Below are positions 8,953 through 33,926 of a DNA stretch of 34,402 nt, one piece after another (position 1 is the stretch's first letter; each line of letters begins with the position of its first letter). The notes below the pieces were generated by a model that did no database searches, was not told where the DNA came from, and saw only the letters and a list, made by a program, of their open reading frames with translations. Where the stretch lies: the IMG/VR virus record IMGVR_UViG_3300034257_000010, positions 1-34,402 of that record. One strand, given 5' to 3'. The position numbers and the translations under genes were made by a program. The stretch is from a virus.

Positions 8953-8954
8953 AT

Positions 8955-9026
8955 GAGCATGAGCATGAGCATGAGCATGAGCATGAGCATGAGCATGAGC
9001 ATGAGCATGAGCATGAGCATGAGCAT
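8955..9026 (+). repeat. Perfect hexamer array (GAGCAT)12
   Basis: Twelve uninterrupted copies of GAGCAT, 72 bases, with no mismatches. Read as ATGAGC from 8953, the array is open and runs into a short frame ending at 9094-9096 that would encode twelve Met-Ser pairs and 23 more residues. Because the unit is six bases, copy-number change would not shift that frame. The frame also covers the DnaA box and a repeated 11-mer, so the array is more likely a non-coding part of the control region or origin. Its perfection suggests recent expansion or active selection. Confidence 0.95.
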
Positions 9027-9032
9027 GCTAGT

Positions 9033-9547: not shown

Positions 9548-9565
9548 TTTAATAATAAAAAATGT

Positions 9566-16379: not shown

Positions 16380-16425
16380 TGGTAGTAATCTACCACTTAA
16401 TTAAATAATGATAGTATCAACTATC
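16380..16425 (+). promoter_or_regulatory. Tandem tetraloop hairpins in the SSB leader
   Basis: TGGTAG-TAAT-CTACCA (16380-16395) and GATAGT-ATCA-ACTATC (16410-16425) are two perfect 6-bp hairpins with 4-base loops. They end 15 bases before the ATG at 16441 and just before an AAAAGG ribosome-binding sequence. They could be a site for autogenous control of the single-stranded-DNA-binding protein, as known for other phage SSBs. Confidence 0.5.
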
Positions 16426-16440
16426 AAAAGGAAAAAATAT

Positions 16441-17052
16441 ATGGGATTAGATAACAGACAAGCTGGTAATTACATTACCGTACTGGCAGGTAAGCTCTGC
16501 CAACGAGTACCGGAAGGTACTGAAGGTGCAATCCAAAGGACTAATAAACTCGGTAATGTGGTATTTGAAAAGTTTTACGACAGTTTTACCGGTCGCTTAG
16601 TGGACATTAAAGTGCAAGACGGAACTTATGGCAAGACTTGGAACTTCGTTTTTGTGGATAAAGAAGAGCCGTACATTTTACAGCTCTCCTACTCGAACAG
16701 TTTTGCTACGGCGTTATTAAAGATTTTACCTAACATCGATTTGACTAAAGAGTTTAAAGTCTCTCCTAGTGTAAAGATGGTGGATGGTAAAAACAAGAGC
16801 ACGCTATTTATTAACCAGGACGGCAAGGCTTTAAAGCATGCTTACACCCGGGAAAATCCTAATGGTATGCCGGATATGGAACAGGTGACTGTTAAAGGCG
16901 TACTACAATGGGATGATACGAAGAGATTAATATTTTTACAGAACATGGTTGATACGGTTATTATGCCTAAACTATTGGGTGGTACAGGACCAGTGCAACC
17001 GGTCGCTGAAGCCCCGGCTGAAGAAGAATTTAATACTGAAGATGCTTTCTAA
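16441..17052 (+). CDS. ssb: Probable single-stranded DNA-binding protein, 203 aa
   Basis: Coats and protects single-stranded DNA and recruits replication partners. The body is beta rich with spaced aromatic and basic residues as in an OB fold (for example about 38-75), and the C-terminus is a Pro/Glu/Ala linker ending EEEFNTEDAF: an acidic tail with terminal Phe like E. coli SSB and T7 gp2.5. The start at 16441 is preferred over 16408 because an AAAAGG site lies 8 bases upstream and the earlier ATG falls in a hairpin. It precedes the primase-helicase and helicase genes. Assignment is by tail and context. Confidence 0.7.
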   Translation: MGLDNRQAGNYITVLAGKLCQRVPEGTEGAIQRTNKLGNVVFEKFYDSFTGRLVDIKVQDGTYGKTWNFVFVDKEEPYILQLSYSNSFATALLKILPNIDLTKEFKVSPSVKMVDGKNKSTLFINQDGKALKHAYTRENPNGMPDMEQVTVKGVLQWDDTKRLIFLQNMVDTVIMPKLLGGTGPVQPVAEAPAEEEFNTEDAF

Positions 17053-17065
17053 CAACTGAATATCC

Positions 17066-17182
17066 CCCTCTCGGTAATGTAGATTTAGTCGAGAGGGAGC
17101 TAACTGAAACAGCGTTTGTGTGGTAAAGGGTTTCTACATTCCCGGAGTCACTATCTCGCTGTTTTTGGTTAGCTCTTTCTCG
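17066..17182 (+). ncRNA. Two-state structured RNA upstream of primase gene (candidate riboswitch or replication RNA)
   Basis: Two exclusive folds share bases. Fold 1: CCCTCTCG (17066-17073) pairs with CGAGAGGG (17090-17097). Fold 2: 17090-17104 pairs with 17168-17182 over 15 continuous pairs (two G-U), extended after a small internal loop by AAACAGCG (17107-17114) with CGCTGTTT (17157-17164). In fold 1 the hairpin loop contains AATGTAGA (17076-17083), exactly complementary to TCTACATT (17133-17140), itself the loop of GGG/CCC (17128-17130, 17141-17143), giving an 8-bp kissing contact. It ends 16 bases before the primase ATG. No U-run follows. Confidence 0.65.
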
Positions 17183-17198
17183 ATTTAAACAAAAATGT

Positions 17199-19526
17199 AT
17201 GACAGAAAAATTTTTAACCTTCTTCCCTAATTGCAAGTTTAGATACTTGGATTTGTCAGGTGGAAATAAGCCTCCTATCTCTTCTGATACGCAAAAAGAT
17301 GAATTGAACAAGCAAGGTTATGACAGTTTCTTTACTCCCAATGGCTTTGCCGGTAATACTGCTACCAGAGATAACTGCATAAACCTATCAGCTTTTTATA
17401 TTGATATAGACCATAAATTATCTGAAGCTGAGATGGATGAGATTAAAAAAACCCTCGACCCGACTTTTATTATAAAGACGATGCAAGGCTTTCATTTTTA
17501 CTGGTTATTAGATGAACCTATTTTCAGAGCAGAAAATCCTGGTGATTGGGAGGCAATCGTGGCACGCTGGGAGCGGATAGAACAAGCAATCGTTAATGCA
17601 ATCCCTAACGCCGATAAAGCGGTTAAAGATATACCTAGAATATTACGGGTACCGGATACAATATATTTTAAGAAAACCGATGGCACTTTTAAGATAAAAG
17701 GAATTTACAAGAAGCCGGCGAATACTTACTCAATGGCTGAAGTTGAAGCCGTCTTCCCGTCGACCGCCCCGGCTACGGTTAATAGTTTAGCTACGACAAC
17801 TAATGATAGGATAAAGAAAATGGCTGATGCCGAAAGGGTTAATTTCTTTGAACGAGTCAATGAAGAGTTTCCGATTGAAGAGCGGGATAGTTTCCAGCGA
17901 TTAATCAATGCTCACCCGGATGCTTTGCTCCCCGGCACCGGGCGGAACACCACACTCCTGATTACTTCTTGCTTGATGAGGCAGGCTAAGTGGACTAAGA
18001 AACAAGCGATTGAACAGATTGAAAAAGTCGGTTGGTACGGGATGGAGAAGGAGCCGGGCGGTGCTAGAGAAATTTTAACTACAATCGATAGTGCTTTTAA
18101 CGGCAATTATACTTACTCGTATAAAAATGATGTTATATCTTTCAATATGTCCCCGATTGAAAATCAACGGATACAGCAAGCTTATGTTAAGGTAGCTAAG
18201 GACCGTAAAGACCAGGATAAGGTCCGTTTCTCAAACTACGAGCAGGAACTTTTGGTCAAACATCCACACCTCCGAAAAAATGAAATTGGGATAATTTTTC
18301 AGTACCGGGACGGTGTTTATAAAATGATGTCCGACCAGGATATTTCAGATTTGATATTACAGGGGCTTTATGATGATATGCTTTGGAATTATCGGACTAA
18401 TAAAAATGTCTCTGATAAGGTAGCTTGTTTGCTATCAATCATCCCCCTGTTAGTCGTGACTGATGATAAAGGTTATATCGCTAATGTAAAAAATGGACTG
18501 CTTAATATTTATACCAAGGAATTGATGCCTCACTCGCCGACCTTTGTTTCGCTTATCCAGTACCCGGTTGTTTATGACCCGGCGGCGACCGCCCCGGTTT
18601 GGGATAGGTGCGTCCATGAATGGATGAAAGGACCGGAATGGTCTATGAAAATTAAATTGCTAAAACAATTCTGCGGATATTGCTTATCTTCTTCAATGCT
18701 TTATGACCGGGCTTTATTTATGGTGGGAGACGGCGGAAATGGCAAGTCAACTTTCATTGATACCATTGCTATGGTCCTCGGACCGGATGCCACATCGCAC
18801 ATCGACCTGGAGGGACTTTACGATACCTTTGGCATGCACGGGCTGATAGGCAAGCGGTTGAACATCATTGAAGAAGTCCACGGTAATTATTACCAAAGCA
18901 ATAAACTGAAGAAGTTAATCTCTGGCGAACAAGTGACTATTGATATTAAATATAAACCTCAGTTTACTTTTCGACCGCAAGCTAAATTTGTTTTCTCGGT
19001 TAATATGCTCCCCAGGGTAGATGATACTTCCACCGCCACTGAACGCAGAATCCTAGCTGTACAATTTTTGAACAACTATCGGGAAAATCCTAACTATGAA
19101 CTCCGGTCTAGTGTAGGCTTATTAGCTCAAGAACTGTCTGGTATTTTAAATTGGATGGTTGCCGGAGCGATTGACCTGGCTAACGACAAAAAGTTTGTGA
19201 TTACTAATGAACAAACCAGGATACTGGATGAGTACCGGGAAGAAAATTCTTCGGTTGAAGGTTTTCTGTCTGAGTGCGTAATTTTGAATCCAACCACCAG
19301 TATTGAAACTCCGACACTTTACAACGAGTACAAGCGATGGAGTATGACTGACGGCGGGAGAAAAATAAAGTCTAAGATTACTTTTAACAAAGAGGTCCGG
19401 GCTTTCGGAGCTAAGGGAAAGCGGTTTACTTTCGAACCACGAGCTAGCGGTCATCTCGAAGCTAAGTTTGCTGGAATTGCTTTAAGTCCGCAGTGGATAG
19501 CCCAATGTCAGGCTTATTTAGCCTAA
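17199..19526 (+). CDS. AEP primase fused to SF3 (D5-like) helicase, 775 aa
   Basis: A replication enzyme that makes primers and unwinds DNA. The N-terminal archaeo-eukaryotic primase domain shows the catalytic YIDID (67-71), then FHFYW (98-102) and RILRVPDTIYF (148-158). The C-terminal superfamily 3 helicase has Walker A GDGGNGKST (510-518), Walker B LNIIEE (554-559), the motif C-like FSVNMLPRVDD (599-609) and arginines RR (616-617). A linker of about 300 residues joins them. Domain order and length match phage and plasmid primase-helicases. The start has the AAAAATGT-ATG leader and follows the structured RNA at 17066. It probably acts at the local origin with host polymerase. Confidence 0.9.
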   Translation: MTEKFLTFFPNCKFRYLDLSGGNKPPISSDTQKDELNKQGYDSFFTPNGFAGNTATRDNCINLSAFYIDIDHKLSEAEMDEIKKTLDPTFIIKTMQGFHFYWLLDEPIFRAENPGDWEAIVARWERIEQAIVNAIPNADKAVKDIPRILRVPDTIYFKKTDGTFKIKGIYKKPANTYSMAEVEAVFPSTAPATVNSLATTTNDRIKKMADAERVNFFERVNEEFPIEERDSFQRLINAHPDALLPGTGRNTTLLITSCLMRQAKWTKKQAIEQIEKVGWYGMEKEPGGAREILTTIDSAFNGNYTYSYKNDVISFNMSPIENQRIQQAYVKVAKDRKDQDKVRFSNYEQELLVKHPHLRKNEIGIIFQYRDGVYKMMSDQDISDLILQGLYDDMLWNYRTNKNVSDKVACLLSIIPLLVVTDDKGYIANVKNGLLNIYTKELMPHSPTFVSLIQYPVVYDPAATAPVWDRCVHEWMKGPEWSMKIKLLKQFCGYCLSSSMLYDRALFMVGDGGNGKSTFIDTIAMVLGPDATSHIDLEGLYDTFGMHGLIGKRLNIIEEVHGNYYQSNKLKKLISGEQVTIDIKYKPQFTFRPQAKFVFSVNMLPRVDDTSTATERRILAVQFLNNYRENPNYELRSSVGLLAQELSGILNWMVAGAIDLANDKKFVITNEQTRILDEYREENSSVEGFLSECVILNPTTSIETPTLYNEYKRWSMTDGGRKIKSKITFNKEVRAFGAKGKRFTFEPRASGHLEAKFAGIALSPQWIAQCQAYLA

Positions 19527-33305: not shown

Positions 33306-33926
33306 CTAAACCGTGATGTTTGAGACTAAACCATCTTGGATAGTAATTGTTTGGACAGGACCGGTAGGACCGGCGTTGTAACCATTGCCAGGACCAGTCG
33401 CTCCGGTATACCCCGTTGCACCAATAGCACCAGTATAGCCAGTGTAACCTGTGAACCCAGTATAACCGGTATAACCAGTGGCACCAGCAGGACCGGTGTA
33501 ACCAGTATAACCAGTTGCACCAGTGGCTCCGGCGGGACCGGTAAAGCCGGTTGCACCAGTGGAAGAAGCAGCTCCATTAGGACCAGTATAACCAGTATAG
33601 CCAGTCGGACCGGTAAATCCTGTTGCTCCAGTAGCTGTAGCTGAACCAGCAGGACCAGTATAGCCAGTATAACCAGTAGGACCGGTAACGTCAGAATCAG
33701 CACCAGTATAACCAGTGTAACCGGTTGCACCGGTAAAACCAGTGTAACCAGTCGCTCCGGCAGCTCCGGAACCGATTGACGACCAGGACGGACTAGCGAC
33801 CGTACCTGTCATCTGATAAACAGCTGAACCGTCTAAATCTTGAAGTATACACTCTAAAGCGAAAATATTAGCGTAAGTCGCACCAGTATATGGAGACCCG
33901 CCGGTAATTGTACCGAAGGTAACCAA
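33306..33926 (-). CDS. Collagen-like fibre protein, 206 aa from TTG (possibly 248 aa)
   Basis: Residues about 60-180 consist of Gly-x-Thr and Gly-Tyr-Thr triplets ([17 protein letters not shown]), a collagen-like triple-helix pattern found in phage tail fibres and appendages. The ends are non-collagenous; the C-terminus ([15 protein letters not shown]) may trimerise. The TTG at 33926 is the only conventional in-frame start. The frame stays open upstream without any ATG, and just after the HNH stop an ATT at 34050-34052 begins [14 protein letters not shown], a natural protein start, so the true gene may be 33306-34052. The repeats may be variable in length. Confidence 0.75.

Follow-up and report, generated by a model that had tools for sequence, protein, structure and literature searches.

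A conserved pseudoknot-forming RNA upstream of D5-type primase-helicase genes in uncultured phages, and its possible action through a leader start codon

Between the genes for a single-stranded DNA-binding (SSB)-like protein and a D5-type primase-helicase in the IMG/VR virus record IMGVR_UViG_3300034257_000010 lies an RNA element in which a short strand, here called A, is complementary to A', the apical loop of a long hairpin located 3' of A. The whole stretch of DNA that we analyzed, 34,402 nucleotides (nt) in length, is referred to as the window. The element is almost certainly a real and widely conserved structured RNA, we have high confidence that it acts as sense RNA, and it is probably a cis regulator of the downstream replication genes. 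It seems to represent a hitherto unrecorded RNA family, whose carriers are uncultured phages with primases of the D5 type. Given that the pairing is kept among relatives despite a complete change of its letters, we think that it is probably a switch, so far undescribed, acting at the RNA level on a replication gene of these phages.

The element and its folds in the window

The pairings that an initial annotation of the sequence had named between the two genes are all present where it placed them. The first, P1 (17066-17073/17090-17097, 8 bp), borrows the outer bases of the long hairpin's 5' arm and holds A in its loop. The long hairpin, P2, has 15 pairs including two G-U (17090-17104/17168-17182) and an inward continuation (17105-17114/17157-17167, with U162 bulged), and folding extends it to 17087-17114/17157-17185. 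P1 and the distal part of P2 are mutually exclusive. The loops at 17076-17083 (AAUGUAGA) and 17133-17140 (UCUACAUU) are complementary at every base. P2 scores -49.1 and P1 -43.9, a lead of about 5 kcal/mol for P2, so P1 would be favored only early, during transcription, before the 3' arm exists. A is unpaired in the P2 fold as well, and A:A' pairing there makes an ordinary pseudoknot, which is the form kept in relatives. The annotation had tied the 8-nt loop match to the first fold; the match stands, while its restriction to that fold does not. Likewise, the description as a two-state RNA with kissing loops suits the sub-clade of the window, while elsewhere A is a single strand 5' of one long hairpin.

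A 151-nt region is much more stably folded than 200 dinucleotide shuffles, with z = -5.3 for the + strand and -3.15 for the - strand. When both strands of the whole window were scanned for a segment whose partner is the loop of a long hairpin 3' of it, the element ranked first among 104 H-type pseudoknot candidates on the + strand (-62.3, with the next at -50.9), and the best candidate on the - strand scored -56.6. The coordinates are collected in Table 1.

Table 1. Features of the element and the adjoining genes in the window
Feature	Position	Strand	Remarks
Upstream gene, SSB-like protein	16408..17052	+	OB-fold model, acidic C-terminal tail
P1 5' strand, clade-specific competing hairpin	17066..17073	+	compensatory changes in 3/8 pairs; 90% of cells paired, 7 sequences
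Strand A AAUGUAGA, partner of apical loop	17076..17083	+	AUG 17077-17079 and UAG 17080-17082, a start-stop
B, 5' arm of long hairpin P2	17087..17114	+	17090-17097 also P1 partner
Apical hairpin P3 (GGG/CCC), presents A'	17128..17143	+	5-bp equivalents in relatives, e.g. GGGGG..CCUCC
A' UCUACAUU, apical loop, complement of A	17133..17140	+	
B', 3' arm of long hairpin P2	17157..17185	+	
U5 tract within 3' arm	17162..17166	+	21 nt past A'; terminator-like
AAAAATGTATG leader motif of primase gene	17191..17201	+	AATGTA 17194-17199, a repeat of the A core
Downstream gene, D5-type (DUF5906) primase-helicase	17199..19526	+	

Conservation of the pairing in related phages

Searches of IMG/VR with the SSB and primase proteins yielded 34 distinct intervals from SSB to primase gene and a few further loci (numbered with L below), and each interval was scored for its best arrangement of A pairing into the loop of a B:B' hairpin against 60 dinucleotide shuffles. 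In most intervals tested, none of the 60 shuffles did as well. Counting the later additions L058, L059, L060, and L140, about 31 of 36 related phages have the pseudoknot, and all of those that have it are uncultured. A is 7-12 nt long, the span from A to A' in the interval search is mostly 50-87 nt, and A' follows after 38-79 nt, within the apical loop of a stable 15-28 bp hairpin, and it is this loop that pairs to the upstream strand. By eye, the upstream match is bipartite in L014, L017, and L040 (for example, AUGGACA..AUACUAC with GUAGUAU..UGUCCAU). Most elements have a run of U4-8 in the 3' arm, at an offset of 19-32 from A' in the majority.

When hairpins were chosen blind to A, an upstream match of 7-12 nt was still found, as long in at most 5 of 300 shuffles, in most phages in which the hairpin was found; the failures were mostly cases where another hairpin was picked or where A was swallowed by the hairpin. 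A was already known when the regions for a control with swapped A and A' were picked, so we rely on the blind version. Across the phages, there are about 17 distinct A/A' sequence pairs, all with full Watson-Crick pairing, among them AAUGUAGA/UCUACAUU, AAUGCUAA/UUAGCAUU, AUGGCACA/UGUGCCAU, AUAACCCGCAAA/UUUGCGGGUUAU, CUUCGACAA/UUGUCGAAG, and UCGCGAAA/UUUCGCGA. In seven sequences of the window's clade, two-sided changes occur in 3 pairs of P1 and 8 pairs of P2, with shuffled and slid controls well below. A:A' is invariant within this clade, so the evidence for it comes from comparisons between clades, where it covaries strongly. The initial annotation had looked to compensatory changes in relatives as support, and they are found in both competing stems within the clade and in the loop match between clades; its proposal of a functional structured element separating the SSB-like and primase genes is thus borne out.

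Within well-formed helices, G-U pairs outnumber A-C by 53 to 6 (p 2e-10; the sequences are related, so p-values given here are nominal). A hairpin selected at the DNA level would, by strand symmetry, show about equal numbers of the two, and we conclude that selection acts on the sense RNA. Since the partner strands have been replaced many times with the pairing kept, these phages amount to an unusually clean natural test of the features that an RNA switch must keep.

Among more distant relatives, we did not find the element for primases at 23-34% identity, nor beside the majority of SSBs with 28-45% identity. Of about 70 distant loci, a handful including L159 and L105 outscored all 40 shuffles; the places where they did so had nothing in common, and we did not accept them. 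In L147, positions 712-830 combine a 10-nt match between loop and upstream strand with a textbook U8 terminator hairpin just before the start codon of a replication gene. The SSB of L147 is 42% identical, its replication gene is of another kind, and the relatives of that gene were without the element, so L147 is a single outlier.

The surroundings of the element vary. Four phages (L003, L010, L012, and L048) have an additional gene between the SSB gene and the element, and the element stays with the primase. HNH-type genes stand between the element and the primase in L005, L014, L017, L019, and L021, and in L014 and L019 the open reading frame (ORF) of the inserted HNH gene shares its frame with the leader ORF described below.

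At gathering score, none of the 4227 families of Rfam 15 matched in the window or in nine loci with relatives, except for an unrelated tRNA in L023, and a loose Rfam scan of the element gave only chance matches to microRNA and small nucleolar RNA families. The tRNA gene of L023 (5685-5760) has an unassigned 4-base anticodon (gtag) and lies inside an intergenic hairpin. A tRNA-like sequence that ARAGORN does not call is found beside the element in L042 (about 2680-2790) and L140 (from about 5375).

A leader start codon and open frame

In 30 of 31 elements, an AUG is located within A or no more than 13 nt 5' of it. The exception is L017, whose AUG begins 13 nt downstream of the 5' end of A. In the outlier L147, it is just past A. 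Outside the window's clade, this AUG opens a frame of 26-55 codons through the hairpin in nearly all of the elements, within the region scanned. Neither the start codon nor the ORF figured in the initial annotation. Testing the AUG and open frame jointly against shuffles under the same selection rule gave a combined p of 4.5e-9 for 15 representatives, which were picked by hand and are related, so that the rows are not fully independent. Five members of the window's clade, which have AUG-UAG only, are negative in this test. L005 is also negative by the rule, although 39 codons are open from another AUG located 13 nt downstream of the first.

In about 14 of the 20 leaders that have an ORF and lack an insertion, the leader stop falls close to the primase ATG, from 14 nt upstream of it to 17 nt within the gene, and four times the stop and the primase start overlap as ATGA. 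A conserved leader peptide is ruled out by the lack of a third-codon-position excess and by frames that shift between relatives, which suggests that the act of translation through the structure, and not the peptide, is what matters.

A possible second partner at the primase start

About half of the phages (L048, L059, L040, L006, L012, and L039) have a copy of the A core near the primase start, and this copy changes along with A: it is AAATGCTA in L048 and L059, and ATACTAC in L040. In the window, the AATGTA of the primase leader motif repeats the A core, so A' could pair there too, and the loop might mask either start, that of the leader or that of the primase. The other half or so of the phages lack the copy, and a common gene-start motif may be all that it reflects in the AAUGUA lineages. 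A new switch family, in which one loop complementary to the leader start and, in several lineages, to the replication-gene start chooses which of them is masked, with the matching sequences replaced together, is a speculative and somewhat unlikely interpretation.

The 11-mer AAAAATGTATG occurs in the window at 9558, 9849, 10278, 10954, 11347, 11944, and 17191, heading six small early genes and the primase gene. It contains two ATGs that are 4 nt apart and in different frames, and the first opens an ORF of 6-14 codons. The motif is also abundant in L001, L008, and L010. UACAUU in the loop complements AAAAATGTATG at the six other early genes of the window, and we considered regulation of these genes in trans; in relatives with other A sequences, no matching genome-wide gene-start motif was found, and we rejected the idea.

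Proposed mechanism and alternatives

The best single mechanism that the sequences suggest to us is a pseudoknot attenuator acting at the leader start of the primase-helicase operon, which we advance tentatively, at slightly less than an even chance. A:A' pairing would fall within the ribosome footprint of the leader AUG and mask this start, giving the OFF state. If a ribosome loads first, for example before A' has been transcribed, A would be kept from A', and the translating ribosome would melt the hairpin, such that transcription passes the U-tract hairpin, or ribosomes are passed to the primase start, or both, giving the ON state. The ribosome and A' would thus compete for the leader start, with readthrough setting primase expression, and candidate signals are ribosome supply, an antisense RNA, and binding of SSB or primase. 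In the variant of the window's clade, where the ORF has shrunk to AUG-UAG, the added P1 may be a second way of setting the balance. Control at the level of transcription would survive the HNH insertions (L005, L014, L017, L019, and L021), while a pure start-codon mask would not.

In addition to the relatedness of the rows in the leader-ORF test, several observations weigh against this mechanism. The direction of the effect of A:A' on expression, up or down, is a guess. The window itself has no leader ORF past AUG-UAG. In L001, L011, and L062, the hairpin is kept and the upstream A is absent, leaving only the downstream partner, and L054 and L055 have neither hairpin nor A. With HNH genes between element and primase in five relatives, a direct effect on the primase start codon cannot be universal. 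The U-tract is missing in L140 and L058.

The U-tract also invites a simpler explanation, a plain transcription terminator or attenuator between the SSB and primase genes, where the pseudoknot only tunes hairpin formation and leader translation is irrelevant. In most elements, the U run comes after an inner GC stem; in the outlier L147, a GC stem and U8 of textbook form immediately precede the next start codon, and an HNH gene inserted downstream is compatible with termination. We nevertheless consider a plain terminator unlikely, as in most phages the stem goes on for 5-15 bp past the U-tract, which a terminator does not need, L140 and L058 do without the tract, the conserved open leader frame is left unexplained, and a terminator scan of the window region, which is blind to loops longer than 8 nt, found no excess over shuffles. 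Another possibility, by analogy to gp32 of phage T4 binding its own leader (PMC3014915), is a protein-binding operator, with the phage SSB or primase on the pseudoknot and its A-rich linker repressing or releasing primase synthesis. In many phages, the element is directly between the two genes, and an OB-fold, single-stranded DNA-binding protein with an SSB-like tail is predicted to be encoded next door, but A and A' vary completely, leaving no obvious fixed sequence target, and the element is 3' of the SSB gene, not 5'. For these reasons, we think an operator of this kind quite unlikely.

That the structure persists with an HNH gene lying between it and the primase (L005, L017, L019, and L021), and that it is compact and highly structured, could indicate a free-standing small RNA or a stabilizer of the 3' end of the SSB mRNA instead of a primase leader element. 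We give this little credence, however, given that the element is always on the sense strand 5' of a replication gene, that leader ORFs often end at the start of the primase gene, and that the element stays with the primase when another gene intervenes after the SSB gene (L003, L010, L012, and L048). The initial annotation had also suggested a single-strand origin at the DNA level. The element is located in the replication module, and DnaA-box-like 9-mers are near some copies (L007 and L040), but these boxes are not consistently placed and only a sense RNA explains the excess of G-U over A-C, so a DNA-level replication origin or single-strand initiation site is very improbable. A small-molecule riboswitch, also raised there, is unlikely because two clade alignments have no invariant unpaired core, and A, A', and most of the stems change freely. 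A type III antitoxin, a ribozyme, and a frameshift pseudoknot were dropped, with no partner gene, Rfam match, or slippery overlap to suggest them.

Comparison with known systems

The gene 32 leaders of T4, T2, and RB69 contain a pseudoknot by which gp32 regulates its own synthesis (PMC3014915, PMC535899). Like these, the element is a pseudoknot formed by phage RNA ahead of a replication gene, and an SSB gene is involved in both cases. The T4 pseudoknot is 5' of the SSB gene, whereas here the pseudoknot comes after the SSB-like gene and before the primase, so the position that defines the T4 gene 32 type, 5' of an SSB gene and its ribosome site, is not the one occupied here. The T4 leader pseudoknot has short stems and is not known to have a leader ORF; here there is a 15-28 bp hairpin, pairing of its apical loop to an upstream strand, and a leader ORF in most relatives.

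Leader ORFs are a feature of certain plasmid replication genes. For repY-repZ of the IncI-alpha plasmid ColIb-P9, repB-repA of IncB/I-complex plasmids, and tap-repA of R1, translation of an ORF in the leader is needed for the downstream replication initiator (cited in PMC10724649, PMC10286972, PMC5883639). These leaders resemble our element in having RNA structure (a pseudoknot in the I-complex) and a leader ORF before a replication gene. In I-complex plasmids, the pseudoknot forms 3' of the leader ORF and activates. In contrast, the partner strand here is at the leader start and would mask it, and any coupling is putative. The I-complex pseudoknot joins the loop of a 5' hairpin to a strand immediately 5' of the rep start; here the main partner is 5' of the hairpin, and a copy at the primase start is present in about half of the phages. 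The leader ORF ends beside the primase start in most of the relatives that have one, which would fit coupling of the repYZ type, and it is absent in the window's clade.

The mRNA of timP, an enterobacterial type I toxin, needs a pseudoknot for its translation (PMC11228461). Both timP and our element have mutually exclusive mRNA folds, and in timP pairing between two stem-loops decides translation; there is no relation in sequence or genes. Ribosome-mediated attenuators of the trp and his type have a leader ORF that overlaps a U-tract hairpin before the controlled gene. This arrangement is also seen here, but the peptide is unconstrained, the leader start is under a pseudoknot, and the ORF often reaches the start of the controlled gene. 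The nearest systems in logic are the T4 gene 32 pseudoknot, the leader-coupled rep genes of R1 and the I-complex, and the two-state timP mRNA. Among the titles and abstracts of the literature that we searched, there was no earlier report of the element. If the leader-start attenuator is true, tailed phages would have a plasmid-like, leader-coupled control of a replication gene.

Flanking genes and other observations

The SSB-like protein has 214 amino acids, and an alignment-based AlphaFold model of it has an OB-like beta fold with a predicted local distance difference test (pLDDT) score of 80. The best match of this model in the PDB is PrgE, a plasmid single-stranded DNA-binding protein (prob 0.98, E 4e-3, with a weak template-modeling score), and many relatives have SSB-like C-terminal tips, DDIPF or similar. 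The label is therefore reasonable for this predicted fold, if not proven. The downstream gene matches the PHROG DNA primase (E 1e-73) and Pfam DUF5906 (E 8e-21) plus D5_N, and is followed by a helicase and then endonuclease VII. No close homologues of the SSB-like and primase genes were found in cultured phages.

DnaA-box-like 9-mers of the TTATCCACA type occur at 4838 in L007, 2811 in L040, and 16653 in the window, with no fixed place; the one in the window is inside the SSB-like gene. Two repeats elsewhere in the window were also noted. At 8953-9027, there is a perfect tandem array of ATGAGC with 12.5 copies, intergenic and located where transcription diverges, and degenerate tandem repeats with ACCAGTATA-type units and periods of 9 to 72 lie at 33420-33760 in a minus-strand gene.
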